Virus record (IMG/VR): IMGVR_UViG_3300013131_000209
Span: 1-27,160 of that record
Origin: a virus
DNA: 27,160 nt
Reading direction: 5' to 3' (one strand)
This document shows, in pieces, positions 391 to 27,160 of the stretch. The notes under the pieces are model-generated. The model did not search any database. It was given only the letters and a program-made list of their open reading frames with translations, and was not told where the DNA came from. Numbering within the stretch: position 1 is the first letter of the stretch; every line of letters starts with the position of its first letter. A program made the translations under genes and the position numbers.

Positions 391-399
391 AATATTTAG
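391..399 (+). promoter_or_regulatory. Candidate late-promoter box AATATTTAG
   Basis: AATATTTAG lies just before the ATG at 405, and no Shine-Dalgarno sequence is visible. The 8-mer ATATTTAG occurs four times on the + strand (also 1133, 6301, 26582) and I found none on the other strand. All four copies are near starts of virion-type genes. If it acts as a -10-like late box, the transcript would begin almost at the ATG and be leaderless. The reverse complement contains CTAAATA, which resembles T4-type late promoters, so orientation is uncertain. Confidence 0.3.
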
Positions 400-404
400 C
401 TCGT

Positions 405-848
405 ATGGCAAATTTCAAAGAGACTGTGTTGTTGAGATCTTACATTCGGGCGCGCCTAACAGAGGACGTATACACAGGCGGAAAGTTTATGCCTGATCGC
501 GCCATAGCCTCTGTCGATCGATACCTAGGAGGCGACCTACCGGCCCTAGGTGTTTCTCCAGAAATTGCCGAGGAAGTGACCTTGGATGACCTCCGGTCCA
601 CATTTGGAGAGGAGGGTTGGGACGTCGACTCGGAGCTCCAGAGAGCGGTAGAAGATCGAGATAAAAATGCAGCCCGCCGACGTGTCAAAGAGATTCTCAA
701 CACAGGCTTCATTTCTCCGACGAGCTCGCTGGGAAAGAAGGGCTTTAAGTCGATCGACGACGCACTCCTGCCTGGCGATGAAGACAGGCTGATTCAGGTG
801 ATTCTCGACGACCTCTTCGATAGCGATGGCGTGATCACGATATACTAA
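405..848 (+). CDS. Unknown 147-residue protein with CTS-like N-terminus
   Basis: I do not recognise a family. The protein is acidic and soluble, with no signal peptide or membrane segment. Residues 8-20 (VLLRSYIRARLTE) form a basic amphipathic helix ending in L-T-E. The same pattern, hydrophobic-Ile/Val-Arg-x-x-hydrophobic-basic-x-(I/L)-x-x-E, opens three other small proteins in this window (861, 15126, 16295). In T4 the prohead protease gp21 cuts after (L/I)-x-E, and internal proteins carry a short N-terminal capsid-targeting peptide ending this way. By analogy this may be a packaged or prohead-processed protein. It starts right after an ATATTTAG box and has no obvious Shine-Dalgarno sequence. 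It lies in the tail gene block between gp51-like and tape-measure genes. Confidence 0.7.
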   Translation: MANFKETVLLRSYIRARLTEDVYTGGKFMPDRAIASVDRYLGGDLPALGVSPEIAEEVTLDDLRSTFGEEGWDVDSELQRAVEDRDKNAARRRVKEILNTGFISPTSSLGKKGFKSIDDALLPGDEDRLIQVILDDLFDSDGVITIY

Positions 849-1131: not shown

Positions 1132-1140
1132 AATATTTAG
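1132..1140 (+). promoter_or_regulatory. Candidate late-promoter box AATATTTAG before tape measure
   Basis: Second copy of AATATTTAG, in the 64-base gap before the tape measure gene. If it marks a -10-like box, the leader would be about 30 bases and would include GAGACGG before the ATG at 1177. This is the best-placed copy for a conventional promoter. Confidence 0.35.
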
Positions 1141-10026: not shown

Positions 10027-10317
10027 ATGTCACAAAGATATAGTAATACTCCTAAAATCGCTGCCGGAAGTCAATATGGCACTGCCACGGCTCACAATGG
10101 CATTCGTCGAGCTGTACAACAGGGGCAAATTAGTACGAGAGAGTACGTGCTCAATGAGGGCGAGCGCCTCGACACGATCGCGGGCCGTGTGTATGGAAAC
10201 GCTCGCCTGTGGTGGATTATTGCCGCAGCTTCCGGAATCGGGTGGCCCCTGCAGGTGCCTCCTGGGACGCAGCTTTTGATACCAACTGACTTGAAGCAGA
10301 CGGCGCAGTATGCCTGA
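10027..10317 (+). CDS. LysM-like baseplate protein (gp53 / gpX type)
   Basis: This is a 96-residue protein. Residues 38-88 contain a LysM-type fold signature: GERLDTIAGRVYGNARLWW, then an IAAASGI turn and PPGTQLLIP at the end. Short LysM-like proteins placed between tape measure and hub are common in contractile tails (P2 gpX; the C-terminal domain of T4 gp53), where they join wedge or hub parts rather than cut cell wall. The ATG at 10027 is chosen because the frame before it lacks another good start. No convincing Shine-Dalgarno sequence is seen. Its last 8 bases overlap the next gene (ATGCCTGA), so translation is probably coupled. Confidence 0.8.
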   Translation: MSQRYSNTPKIAAGSQYGTATAHNGIRRAVQQGQISTREYVLNEGERLDTIAGRVYGNARLWWIIAAASGIGWPLQVPPGTQLLIPTDLKQTAQYA

Positions 10318-16280: not shown

Positions 16281-16294
16281 GCCTATTTATAGGC
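16281..16294 (+). promoter_or_regulatory. Inverted repeat with TATTTATA directly before a start codon
   Basis: GCCTAT-TT-ATAGGC is a perfect 6-bp inverted repeat whose last base touches the ATG at 16295. It contains TATTTATA, whose reverse complement is the exact T4 late-promoter box TATAAATA. It may be a promoter or a protein-binding site. As an RNA hairpin its 2-base loop is too tight unless the stem opens. Confidence 0.35.
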
Positions 16295-17526: not shown

Positions 17527-17576
17527 TTGCTGAACAACCTGCGATCACAGATTAGTTTCGAACTGTAGCTGCGCCG

Positions 17577-17616
17577 ATATGCGGCAGGGGCTTGTACCCT
17601 GCCGCATATTCTTTTT
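17577..17616 (+). terminator. Strong rho-independent terminator after SSB
   Basis: A perfect 13-bp stem (17577-17589 with 17597-17609) carries a 7-base loop (GCTTGTA) and is followed directly by TTCTTTTT. This is the clearest terminator in the window. It sits 50 bases after the SSB stop and just before uvsX, so uvsX is read either by readthrough or from a promoter between 17617 and 17631, where only GGTATACAAT is seen. Confidence 0.93.
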
Positions 17617-17631
17617 GAGAGGGTATACAAT

Positions 17632-18375
17632 ATGGCAAAGAAGACCGCGAAAGAAGCACAGGAAGTAAAAGAAGCTCCGGCTCCTAAGGTGATTAAGGAG
17701 GTGCCGCAGCATGATGATTTCACCGACGATCTCATCAAGTCTCTCAACAAGTCGCATGGGACCCGGGTCGCCTACAACCTGGCGCTCGATGACTCCCCCA
17801 CCCACGTGAAGCGCTGGATCAGCACCGGATCCCGCCAGCTCGACTACATTATCTCCAATCGCCGCGGCGGTGGACTCCCAGAAGGCCGCATCGTGGAGAT
17901 CTTCGGCCCTCCCTCGATCGGTAAGTCGCACATCGCCATCCAGATCGCCCGCTCCACCCAGAAGATGGGCGGCATCGTGGTCTACATCGACACGGAGAAC
18001 GCCACCTCGGTCGAGAACCTGGGCCTGCTCGGGGTCGATGTCAAGAAGCGGTTCGTCTATGTCGACACCCACTGCACGGAGGAGGTCCTCTCCATCGCTG
18101 AGGAGACCATCCTGAAGGCGAAGGCAATGAACAAAGACGTGCCGGTCACCATCATCTGGGACTCGGTGGCTGCGAGCTCCCCCAAGGCAGAGCTTACTGG
18201 AGACTATGACAAGGACTCGATCGGTCTACAGGCCCGCGCGATCTCCAAAGGCATGCGCAAGATCACCGGTGTCATCGCCAACGAGAACGTGCTGCTAGTG
18301 TGCCTGAACCAGACTCGTATGAAGATCGGCTGCGTCGGTCCTGACACCGAAGTTTCTGTAAGAAAAGTGTCATGA
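17632..18375 (+). CDS. uvsX: UvsX/RecA recombinase N-part fused to a 14-residue N-intein
   Basis: Residues 1-233 are the N-terminal half of a phage recombinase: Walker A GPPSIGKS at 92-99, catalytic Glu122 in YIDTENATS, Walker B Asp177 in TIIWDS, and CLNQTRMKIG at 224-233 leading into DNA-binding loop 2. The recombinase then breaks off. Cys234 starts CVGPDTEVSVRKVS, an intein block A, followed by a TGA stop. The missing half is encoded at 19664-20212 behind the rest of an intein. Protein trans-splicing would join Gly233 to Thr145 of that product and give a 415-residue UvsX (T4 UvsX is 391). The gene works in strand exchange and recombination-driven replication together with SSB. The start has GAGAGGG upstream. 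Confidence 0.93.
   Translation: MAKKTAKEAQEVKEAPAPKVIKEVPQHDDFTDDLIKSLNKSHGTRVAYNLALDDSPTHVKRWISTGSRQLDYIISNRRGGGLPEGRIVEIFGPPSIGKSHIAIQIARSTQKMGGIVVYIDTENATSVENLGLLGVDVKKRFVYVDTHCTEEVLSIAEETILKAKAMNKDVPVTIIWDSVAASSPKAELTGDYDKDSIGLQARAISKGMRKITGVIANENVLLVCLNQTRMKIGCVGPDTEVSVRKVS
18331..18372 (+). other. N-intein fragment (14 residues)
   Basis: CVGPDTEVSVRKVS begins with the Cys that would start the N-to-S acyl shift and carries the G-x-DT element of intein block A. Usual split inteins have an N-part near 100 residues. A 14-residue N-part puts this in the small class of 'atypically split' inteins (AceL-TerL and the Vida Lake UvsX intein are the ones I know of). It needs the long C-part at 19232 to be active. 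Confidence 0.85.
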
Positions 18376-19258
18376 AGTTTTCAATCAACCTCTGACAAAG
18401 TATATTTATTGTCGAGGTTGATTGAAATGCCACCTGGGATATATCCGAGAAAAGGTCACTCCGAAGCTACAAAACTGAAGATCGCCGCCGGAAATACTGG
18501 CAAGGTCTTTTCGAGCGAAAGAAAAGAAGCAATATCGAAAGCGAACAAAAAGAAATTAGCTCCAGACGTTGTCGATCGTGCTGAAAAACTGATTTCAGAA
18601 AAGTGCTGTTCTTTCGACGCCGCCATCAAGCATCTAGGTCTTAAACCCACGAAGGCGTTGAGACAGGCTTTGATCGATCAGGGAGTCGATGTGTGCGACG
18701 ATCTCAAGTTCTTCAATTGGAGCATTGACTACTCAACGGGCAAGAAACTTCTTTCGTATTTGAAACTGAACGTTCATTGGTGTGAGATACAAGAAAGAAC
18801 GGGCCTCACACAAAAGCAAATACACGGAGCAAGGATCAAGCTTGAGAAAGCTCACAATTTTGTCTACTCACCCGAAAGGAAAAAGCCAGGCGGGTATGCC
18901 AAGTCGAAGATAGAGCTTCAGGTGCAAGCGATGCTAGATGAGCTAGGTGTAGAATACGAGTCTGAGTTTCCGCATGACGCCTTCTTCTATGACTTTCGAG
19001 TAAAGCGTACGTCGCTTCTCATAGAAGTGAATGGTGACTATTGGCATGCCAATCCCGTCGTGTATCCTGACAAGGAAGCTCTAAATGAAACACAGAGAAA
19101 GATGGTCAGAAGAGATCATTACAAGAGAAGAGTCGCCAAAGATCACGGATATTATGTTTTGTATCTTTGGGAATCTGATTTGAAAAGCCAGCCAGAAGCA
19201 GTTAGAATTACTCTAGAGAGGTACATCAAAAATGCATTCGAAAAAGCAGAAGCTCTCA
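18373..19258 (+). mobile_element. Homing endonuclease cassette that splits the uvsX intein
   Basis: Removing these 886 bases joins TCA (18370-18372) to AGC (19259) and gives one uninterrupted frame ...RKVS-SFFSEAGFD... through the intein into UvsX. The same TCA stands at 19256-19258, so insertion is flanked by a 3-base identity. The cassette holds a hairpin leader and a homing endonuclease gene, and no intron core fits (54 bases before the gene, none after). Hand counts in sample stretches give about 40-45% GC in the endonuclease gene, against about 60% in the uvsX part at 17941-18000, supporting separate origin. Confidence 0.75.
18379..18427 (+). promoter_or_regulatory. Hairpin hiding the endonuclease RBS, with promoter-like loop
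   Basis: 18379-18392 pairs perfectly with 18414-18427 (14 bp). After one bulged T (18393), 18394-18398 pairs with 18409-18413 (5 bp). The loop is AGTATATTTA. The 3' arm contains the ribosome-binding GAGG (18414-18417) and reaches the A of the ATG at 18427. Long transcripts through uvsX would therefore hide the start. A transcript begun from the TATATTTA box in the loop would start near 18413, lack the 5' arm and be translated. T4 I-TevI is controlled by just this hairpin/late-promoter design. Confidence 0.75.
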
Positions 19259-19272
19259 AGCTTCTTCAGTGA
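18427..19272 (+). CDS. Free-standing homing endonuclease, Vsr-like (EDxHD type) with NUMOD3-like repeats
   Basis: This 281-residue protein uses ATG 18427, with GAGG 9 bases upstream; the in-frame TTG at 18409 has no ribosome-binding site and lies in the hairpin. Residues 10-45 carry two NUMOD3-like DNA-binding repeats (HSEATKLKIAAGNTGK, then FSSERKEAISKANKK). Residues about 100-150 look like helix-turn-helix modules. The C-terminal nuclease domain has Glu163, Asp189 in FYDFRV, EVNGDYWHANP (His207), a RRDHYKRR helix (Asp230) and YVLYLWESDL, the order seen in very-short-patch-repair-like homing endonucleases. It would cut uvsX intein alleles lacking the cassette and copy itself in. Its last 41 bases overlap the C-intein gene in another frame. 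Confidence 0.88.
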   Translation: MPPGIYPRKGHSEATKLKIAAGNTGKVFSSERKEAISKANKKKLAPDVVDRAEKLISEKCCSFDAAIKHLGLKPTKALRQALIDQGVDVCDDLKFFNWSIDYSTGKKLLSYLKLNVHWCEIQERTGLTQKQIHGARIKLEKAHNFVYSPERKKPGGYAKSKIELQVQAMLDELGVEYESEFPHDAFFYDFRVKRTSLLIEVNGDYWHANPVVYPDKEALNETQRKMVRRDHYKRRVAKDHGYYVLYLWESDLKSQPEAVRITLERYIKNAFEKAEALKLLQ

Positions 19273-19663
19273 AGCCGGATTCGATTACAAGTCGATGGAG
19301 GTAGGCAGGTTCTACCCCTTGAATGAAAATTGGGAAATTCTAACGCGCGATTCTAGCGGCCGAGACGCTTGGTGTAGAGTGACTCACCTGGTCAGAAAAG
19401 AAGCAACCGTGCCAATCGTTGTCCAGTACATGGACACGCAACTCTTCGTAAGCCCAGAGCACAAGTTTTTTGCGAGAGTAAGCGGTGTAGATGGCTGGAT
19501 CGAGGCAATAGACTTGATCGAAGAGCGCAACGTTCTTCTCCTACACCAGACACACGGTTGGATTCCAGCCTATATGTCTGCTGGCTCTGAAGAGATCGAA
19601 ATTCTCGATATGACTGTCGAGGGTGCCGAGAGCTACTATAGCAATGGTGTTCTTTCCCACAAC
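19232..19663 (+). other. C-intein fragment (about 135-144 residues)
   Basis: This holds every intein splicing block except block A: block B with SPEH, the W-x-x-A-x-DL turn, and blocks F and G ending His-Asn. Together with the 14-residue N-part it makes a mini-intein of about 150 residues. Base composition in samples is near 48-50% GC, lower than the UvsX parts on either side, as expected for an intein that entered from outside. Confidence 0.88.
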
Positions 19664-20212
19664 ACCATGTACGGCGACCCAACGACTACGCCCGGGGGAA
19701 GTGCCATACCTTTTCATGCTTCGGTCCGCATCAAGCTGGGCGCTGGACAGCAGATCCTCAACAAGGACAAGGAGGTCATCGGCATCCACGTCTCGGCGAA
19801 GACGGTGAAGAACAAGGTCTCGGCGCCCTTCAGGTCCTGCGAGTTCGAGATTCACTTCGGTGTGGGCATCAAGGAGCATGAACAGCTCTTCGATCTCCTG
19901 CGCACGCATGGCGCCGAGTCAGTCAACGGTCTCCGCCTCGAGGTCGCTGGCACTGGGTCCTGGAAGACCTTCACGGTGATGCGCGAAGACACTGGAGAGG
20001 TCATTGTGGACAAGAAGTTCTACAAGGCCGAGTTCGATAAGCTCCTCGCCGACCCAGAGCTCTCAGAGTTCCTGGACGATCTGATCGCCGCAGCAATGAC
20101 GAAGAAGCGCAGCACCGAGGGACCGAATGTCGACGCAGAATCCTACGAAGAAGTCAGGGCTCTCTCGATGGAAATGGATGATCTAGGAATGGGCATCTCT
20201 CCGGAGGAGTGA
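19232..20212 (+). CDS. uvsX: C-intein fused to the UvsX/RecA C-part
   Basis: Residues 1-144 are the large intein part and 145-326 the C-terminal recombinase half (TMYGDPTTTPGG, then IPFHASVRIKLG). Start ATG 19232 has AGAGAGG 10 bases upstream and lies inside the endonuclease gene. Residues 1-9 come from the cassette and do not belong to the ancestral intein. Intein block B is SPEHKFFA (His near residue 73), followed by GWIEAIDL. Block F/G is EILDMTVEG through YSNGVLSHN, with His143, Asn144 and Thr145 as the +1 nucleophile. No endonuclease domain is inside the intein. The recombinase tail ends in an acidic stretch (MEMDDLGMGISPEE). Without splicing with the 17632 product neither half can be a working recombinase. 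Confidence 0.93.
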   Translation: MHSKKQKLSSFFSEAGFDYKSMEVGRFYPLNENWEILTRDSSGRDAWCRVTHLVRKEATVPIVVQYMDTQLFVSPEHKFFARVSGVDGWIEAIDLIEERNVLLLHQTHGWIPAYMSAGSEEIEILDMTVEGAESYYSNGVLSHNTMYGDPTTTPGGSAIPFHASVRIKLGAGQQILNKDKEVIGIHVSAKTVKNKVSAPFRSCEFEIHFGVGIKEHEQLFDLLRTHGAESVNGLRLEVAGTGSWKTFTVMREDTGEVIVDKKFYKAEFDKLLADPELSEFLDDLIAAAMTKKRSTEGPNVDAESYEEVRALSMEMDDLGMGISPEE

Positions 20213-26580: not shown

Positions 26581-26589
26581 AATATTTAG
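26581..26589 (+). promoter_or_regulatory. Candidate late-promoter box AATATTTAG before the fibre-like gene
   Basis: Fourth copy of AATATTTAG, in the 77-base gap after clpP and 28 bases before the GTG start of a virion gene. This is where transcription would have to change from nucleotide-metabolism genes to late genes, which is a good place for a late promoter. The gap also has CTCTCG (26552-26557) and CGAGAG (26591-26596), which could pair around the box. Confidence 0.35.
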
Positions 26590-26608: not shown

Positions 26609-27160
26609 GTGACAGCGGTCAGGATACTGGAACCATCAGGTTCGAATGGTTCCATACAGTTTGCCGTCGATGGAGACTTCAGCTCCAGCGATAATCTCGT
26701 ATTTATCACTGGCAGTGAGCGCCTGGGGATCGGGACCCCTGCTCCTGCAGCCAAGCTCCACGTCTCAGGAGGGACGATATTTGGAGGAGTCGCAGCAGAT
26801 CTGCACCAGTTTACTGGCAGTGCCCAATTCTCATCTGGGCTCTCAGGATCTCTCACGCGGCTTGTCGATGGCCGTTCGTATCTGGTCGCCGGTGCCAATG
26901 TCACGATCGTCTCTGAGTCAAATGGACAGATTACGATATCATCGACTGGTGGGGGTGGTAGCAATTCTACTTGCGGCGTCTATTGGGAATCGAGCGCGCC
27001 TGGTGTCATATCGACGACAGGCTCTGTTGCCCTAGGGGGTGGCGCAGCGCCATCACAGCTCTGGGTCAATGGAATCAACCTCACCCCCATTAGCGGGGCG
27101 CTGGTGGTCCCAGGCTCGACGCTGACAGACAGCATTCTCTTGAACCTGAGCGGTGCGCTC
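26609..27160 (+). CDS. Tail-fibre-like virion protein (N-terminal 184 codons, runs off the window)
   Basis: The frame is open from GTG 26609 to the end of the window. ERLGIGTPAPAAKLHVSG (residues 39-56) is the short beta-helical fibre motif common in phage tail fibres. LTRLVDGRSYLVAGANV with the following QITIS is a repeat type frequent in fibres and decoration proteins of marine phages. It is rich in Gly, Ser and Thr and has a Gly4 linker near residue 116. Its C-terminus, where a trimerisation or self-cleaving domain might be, is not in the window. TTTAGGA lies 5 bases before the GTG. Another reading frame (26646-27035) is a shadow of this one. Confidence 0.75.
   Translation, partial: MTAVRILEPSGSNGSIQFAVDGDFSSSDNLVFITGSERLGIGTPAPAAKLHVSGGTIFGGVAADLHQFTGSAQFSSGLSGSLTRLVDGRSYLVAGANVTIVSESNGQITISSTGGGGSNSTCGVYWESSAPGVISTTGSVALGGGAAPSQLWVNGINLTPISGALVVPGSTLTDSILLNLSGAL

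Follow-up and report, generated by a model that had tools for sequence, protein, structure and literature searches.

A hairpin that buries the ribosome-binding site (RBS) of a homing-endonuclease-type gene, lodged between the two halves of a split intein in a phage uvsX gene, bears in its loop a box corresponding to the promoter-like motif of the phage's own lineage. We consider it likely that these features constitute a two-state switch resembling that of the T4 endonuclease I-TevI, in which the hairpin silences the endonuclease on read-through RNA and a promoter within the loop gives an RNA with an open endonuclease start. Reviews describe this type of switch for T4-type phages (PMC2988022, PMC3014915), and one of them attributes an RBS hairpin combined with a late promoter to T4 I-TevI, I-TevII, I-TevIII and segB and to Aeh1 mobE (PMC2988022). 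The present analysis adds a different nuclease fold, a split-intein gene, another promoter box, and repeated occurrence within one genome. The literature consulted, mostly exclusive of subscription papers, showed no description of a hairpin/promoter switch for EDxHD endonucleases or split inteins.

The split uvsX locus and its hairpin

The window, by which we mean the whole stretch of 27,160 nucleotides analysed, is a separate 27-kb virus record. On its + strand, an ORF at 17632..18375 encodes the N-terminal part of the RecA-like protein UvsX (Pfam RecA, E 6.5e-40) followed by an intein N fragment of about 14 residues (18331-18372), and is closed by a stop codon at 18373-18375. Beyond the hairpin lie a 281-residue homing-endonuclease-type gene of Vsr-like/EDxHD fold (18427..19272, +; assigned by family profile and as PHROGs homing endonuclease) and an ORF at 19232..20212 (+), of uncertain start codon and overlapping the endonuclease end, that encodes the intein C fragment (to 19663, SHN/T) and the C-terminal part of UvsX. 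The split intein has both Cys1 and the terminal HN/T, and its C fragment resembles inteins such as gp41-1 and DnaX. Other phages possess uvsX intact, without insertion; the same split, with the intein N part closed by a stop, occurs in L004, L139, L188 and L045. We therefore classify the locus from its sequence as a fractured gene, with intein halves in separate frames around a free-standing endonuclease and with predicted trans-splicing. Dassa et al. in 2009 reportedly described fractured genes of this kind, in which a free-standing endonuclease separates two host-gene halves that bear split-intein parts; the window shares this arrangement, its intein N fragment being short, at about 14 residues.

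The profile of the endonuclease family (A1) matches 3r3p, the structure of I-Bth0305I (E 1.6e-8), and Vsr (E 3.5e-4), and its alignment has invariant D, E, GDYWH, D and W. By profile, 3r3p, annotated as "mobile intron protein", is the closest solved structure to the nuclease domain, and by homology of this domain the protein is classed as EDxHD/I-Bth0305I-like, with putative cleavage and homing activities. Comparison of the uvsX region with isolated phages by blastn yielded no near relative, and all endonuclease matches in isolated phages were below 60% identity.

The hairpin (18379-18427, +) was read directly, confirming the elements listed in an earlier note on this DNA: a stem of 14 + 5 bp interrupted by a single bulge, a 3' arm that takes in GAGG and the first letter of the ATG, and a loop containing TATATTTA. 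The 14-bp 5' arm (TTTCAATCAACCTC, 18379..18392) contains CCTC at 18389-18392, which pairs with the Shine-Dalgarno (SD) sequence. It is followed by the bulged T18393 and by an inner 5-bp stem (GACAA, 18394..18398, with TTGTC, 18409..18413) enclosing a 10-nt loop (AGTATATTTA, 18399..18408), the 3' end of which is formed by the promoter-like box (18401..18408). The 3' arm (GAGGTTGATTGAAA, 18414..18427) includes the SD GAGG at 18414-18417 and ends on the A of the endonuclease start codon (18427-18429). An in-frame TTG within the hairpin (18409-18411), without a preceding SD, could lengthen the endonuclease by six residues.

That this structure hides the endonuclease start, as had been proposed, is borne out by computed folds. 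The minimum free energy of 18360-18450 is -30.6 kcal/mol, compared with -15.4 +/- 3.0 for 200 dinucleotide shuffles, none of which was as good (z -5.0). In long RNA, opening the endonuclease RBS (-15..+3) costs 20.3 kcal/mol and the SD has an unpaired probability of at most 0.002; of 355 control gene starts in the same loci, about 99% are less strongly hidden. Opening costs above 10 kcal/mol occur at 4 of 20 window genes and at 50 of 158 genes of G001, a 147-kb relative; since closed starts are common in GC-rich phages, it is strength and box together that are distinctive, rather than closure by itself.

In the proposed switch, RNA read through from uvsX would fold at 18379-18427, burying the SD and touching the start codon, and little endonuclease would be translated from it. 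RNA polymerase with a phage sigma factor would start near 18414 (predicted start 18413..18415, +), about 6 nt past the loop box, which is the T4-type spacing from box to transcription start. RNA from the endonuclease's own promoter would lack the 5' arm and leave the SD free; when window RNAs were modelled as starting 4-7 nt past the box, the cost of opening the RBS fell from 20.6 to 2.4 kcal/mol, so that the geometry fits the suggested transcript without the 5' arm, given the predicted promoter. Endonuclease synthesis would then depend wholly on the gene's own promoter and probably fall late, uvsX with the split intein being possibly expressed earlier.

It is unlikely that the locus operates instead by translational coupling, with ribosomes that end the uvsX-intein frame (18373-18375) opening the hairpin and endonuclease output tracking uvsX in the absence of an own promoter. 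Its appeal lies in the position of the uvsX-intein stop codon, 4 nt upstream of the 5' arm and in L004 apparently inside the arm, and in related endonucleases of Aes508, AS-gz and CP21 that overlap the upstream frame, suggesting coupling there. When a ribosome is held at the uvsX stop codon and covers the RNA to 18385-18388, however, a hairpin of at least 14.8 kcal/mol remains with the SD paired and hidden, which speaks against simple coupling; the distance from stop to arm, moreover, varies among homologues, and coupling explains neither the strand-biased motif in the loop nor the recurrence of such hairpins at other nucleases.

Conservation of the hairpin and the motif in its loop

The viral collection contains five close sequences, comprising the window, L003 (97%), L004 (59%), L188 (49%) and L139 (52%, truncated). 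Hairpin and box are both retained in L139 and L004; L188 retains a stem of 15 bp, altered on both sides at two pairs relative to the window, and lacks the exact box, and L003 has one stem pair broken by a C.A mismatch. Pairing of the outer stem over these homologues (n=5) amounts to 92.8%, two pairs being changed on both sides. The paired percentage was reached by 11 of 500 shuffles and the covariation score by 39 of 500, and slid versions of the arms pair at 23-56%. Covariation of the arms, put forward in the earlier note as a check, thus gives weak support at n = 5: pairing is kept overall and two changes are compensated, and at single pairs change is uncompensated, as in L003.

In L045, where no endonuclease accompanies the split intein, the hairpin is absent and the RBS is open; its two uvsX intein parts (850-1100) lie about 30 nt apart. 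As an exception, L064 and its relatives carry an endonuclease in the same intein with the RBS open, and in L006-L009 the structures around the start are all weaker. A DNA pattern derived from the window's arms retrieved 21 loci, two of them with an endonuclease homologue (L139 and L137, the latter from the same contig as L004).

The loop box fits the motif ATAYTTA, the distribution of which was analysed in the window and in contigs related to it, recruited via uvsX. The window has 10 copies of TATTTA on its + strand and none on the - strand, and five of the ten are intergenic, though 95% of the sequence is coding. Such boxes are found at 393..398 (AATATTTAG, 12 nt upstream of ATG 405), at 1134..1139 (43 nt upstream of the tape-measure gene at 1177), at 16284..16289 (CCTATTTATAGG, 11 nt upstream of ATG 16295) and at 26583..26588 (26 nt upstream of the gene at 26609), all on the + strand. 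When no motif was preset, the best 6-mers upstream of genes in G001 were TACTTA and ATACTT, with TATTTA and ATATTT near. The full ATAYTTA is distributed between the strands at 34:3 in G001, 7:0 in G004 and 5:0 in the window; it is intergenic in 30 of 37 instances in G001 and in all seven in G004. Copies stand before genes for tail sheath and tail tube (G001) and for the tape measure (window). After removal of the endonuclease region, TATTTA ranked first of 1216 6-mers in the window and G004 combined (6 versus 0.9 expected; 0 on the opposite strand). A more distant relative, G002, has TATTTA upstream of genes without strand bias (5 versus 5). Five of seven lineage records searched encode one sigma-70-type factor each (PHROG sigma), the two without it being fragments of 31-34 kb.

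These statistics identify the loop box as a promoter-like motif proper to the lineage, and the notion of a promoter box in the loop stands to that extent. The box is unlike T4's TATAAATA, which was rejected as a promoter motif of this lineage on counts too few: on the gene strand it occurs once in the window (not before a codirectional gene), never in G004 and once in G001. From motif placement and the genes near other boxes, we infer that the box acts as a late promoter and that uvsX is early; the uvsX leader (17527-17631) is devoid of ATAYTTA, and transcription from the TATTTA farther upstream at 16284 could read through. Separately, some ATAYTTA boxes end about 5 nt before a start codon (window 392-405, L245 about 10197-10209, L239 about 18870, L243 about 1913), so that some RNAs of the lineage may be leaderless.

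Endonuclease starts in related and unrelated nucleases

From 49 loci we compiled 39 non-redundant endonuclease starts, having excluded L005, L017, L020 and L042 (truncated or cut) beforehand; one start-picking rule was applied to all genes, and assigns doubtful internal starts to some. Opening costs of at least 12 kcal/mol were found at 13 of these 39 starts and at 26 of 355 control starts (Fisher 1.6e-5; Mann-Whitney 2e-6). Eight endonucleases of isolated phages (Aes508, CP21, Goe9, ME3, PTm1, AS-gz, F379 and KP13-7) were not strongly closed (1.3-6.7 kcal/mol), which indicates that the switch is not universal; the SRB7757 endonuclease has costs of 15-21 kcal/mol at two candidate starts. Strong hairpins with boxes (23-24 kcal/mol) precede endonucleases of the same superfamily at L031 3503, L032 1200 and L034 3500, and in L031 and L032 the endonuclease directly follows the stop of a uvsX-like gene, outside any intein. 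The arrangement proposed for an endonuclease in a split intein thus also exists outside such genes. At L135 1726-1777 and L138 8970-9021, hairpins carry AAGGAGG in their 3' arm and enclose TGTGGTATAAT, of host -10 type; the genes that follow do not have the look of endonucleases.

The hairpin might alternatively impose constant low translation, the loop box being an incidental AT-rich sequence at which nothing starts. The high background of hidden starts in GC-rich phages, the shortness of the motif and the L188 hairpin without an exact box agree with this reading, which we nonetheless judge very unlikely in view of how boxes are distributed. Among starts closed at 8 kcal/mol or more, a box was present at 14 of 21 endonucleases as opposed to 7 of 100 controls (p 1.1e-8), the box set (TAYTTA, TAAATA or TATAAT within 45 nt) having been picked after seeing the data. 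In 20 of 21 box-bearing nuclease hairpins the box ends 15-22 nt before the start codon, and the box type varies between phages in step with the upstream motif. RNAs modelled as starting 4-7 nt past the box freed the RBS in all 21 (0.7-5.7 kcal/mol, versus 6.5-24.4 in long RNA), a result that follows partly from geometry.

The distribution within single genomes bears on the same question. In G009, a 152-kb contig reached through L010 and chosen, like G013 and G014, because its endonuclease hairpins already showed boxes, Pfam recognises three GIY-YIG, three HNH (one weak) and two Vsr-like nuclease genes, and PHROGs adds one HNH. With nuclease genes left out, the top upstream 7-mer is TATTTAT (7 versus 0.8), and TATTTA ranks 7 of 2371 (10 versus 3.1). 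A box lies within 45 nt of the start in 7 of the 8 Pfam nucleases and in 17 of 145 other genes (p 7e-6), and closure (10 kcal/mol or more) together with a box characterises 5/8 and 5/145, respectively (p 2e-5). One of the latter five is the extra HNH gene, hence for the nine recognised nucleases the counts become 8/9 with a box and 6/9 closed with a box. Omission of L010 leaves 4/7 Pfam nucleases closed with a box, and a stricter count, demanding that the box be enclosed by the RBS pairing, gives 5/8 versus 7/145 (p 6e-5). Hairpin and box are both missing from one HNH gene. Outside the nucleases, a terminase gene and two genes of a PHROG of unknown function are among those closed with a box. 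The terminase large-subunit frame (L279 13834-17934, 1367 residues), with its hairpin and box, could accommodate an intein. L275 2272-2826 and L276 9511-10152 share phrog_5104/phrog_23051 and the same hairpin and box, and genes of this kind are possibly a further family of mobile endonucleases.

The stems in G009 vary from gene to gene while the SD side is kept, as expected for sequestration of the RBS in RNA. A role of the inverted repeat as a DNA or processing signal, whether an operator for the endonuclease or another regulator, a terminator or an RNase III site, is the least probable reading and scarcely to be entertained: compensating changes would preserve DNA symmetry too, and according to a review (PMC2988022) T4 intron endonucleases act, or may act, as repressors of the promoters from which they are made, but this leaves the variable G009 stems unexplained, no U-run follows the stem, and a homing-site-like operator of I-TevI type over the box and promoter found no support, its 13/20 matches being equalled by 20 of 200 shuffles.

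In G013, the two genes closed with TATAATA are both nucleases (2 of 3, versus 0 of 126 other genes), and a further one was recognised by hand; the motif has weak support elsewhere in G013, and the agreement with the upstream motif weakens when nuclease genes are removed (TATAAT rank 268; ATAATAT 8 versus 1.7 expected). TAAATA leads the upstream motifs of the 10-kb contig G014 (5 versus 0.6 without the nuclease), and the loop of the endonuclease hairpin there holds TATAAATA. Upstream motif signals were too weak for comparison with the loop in G008, G010, G011, G012, G016 and G018. Because the hairpins of G009 and G014 each use a local box, it seems that the loop sequence differs between phages and tracks the promoter of the resident one.

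Relation to known switches and wider significance

In common with I-TevI, I-TevII, I-TevIII, segB and mobE, the window would have a mobile endonuclease whose RBS is buried on read-through RNA and is freed on RNA that starts from its own promoter, without the 5' arm. Those systems involve GIY-YIG or HNH nucleases, a TATAAATA box, and an intron or free-standing setting, whereas the window has an EDxHD/Vsr-like nuclease between split-intein halves, an ATAYTTA box and no operator found. The likeness to I-TevI drawn in the earlier note therefore extends to the sequence-level predictions that were tested, and not to the operator. For the T4 lysozyme gene e, as related in a review (PMC3014915), a hairpin forms on the long early RNA and late promoters just upstream yield open RNA; this gene is not mobile, and the window differs in having the box within the loop.

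A further comparison is provided by Kayvirus vB_SauM-515A1, for which one report (PMC7698491) describes an own early promoter of ksaI, located in a group I intron in lysK. The ksaI RBS (L300 7502, - strand) is closed at 15.9 kcal/mol in a hairpin containing TTGACA-N17-TATACT, a sigma-70-like promoter recognised by eye; the promoter is early and of host type, unlike that predicted in the window. Of five endonucleases folded from this phage, ksaI alone is closed and the other four are open. I-MsaII, for which the same source reports a late promoter upstream (PMC7698491), showed neither a box nor a strong hairpin within 90 nt of its annotated start. The ksaI case hints that the general rule is expression from the own promoter only, with timing set by that promoter.

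We lean, by a modest margin of confidence, toward the view that placing a promoter within an RBS-hiding hairpin is a general means, arrived at by convergence, of insulating the mobile endonucleases of phages, extending to at least three unrelated folds within one phage, with gene-specific stems and with a loop box that is whatever the resident sigma factor reads (ATAYTTA, TATAAATA, perhaps TATAATATA, or host sigma-70 as at ksaI). The recurrence of the arrangement points to strong, repeated selection for silence of mobile endonucleases on read-through RNA. If this view is correct, such hairpins could reveal new families of mobile endonucleases and, through the box in the loop, the promoter motifs of phages that have never been cultured.
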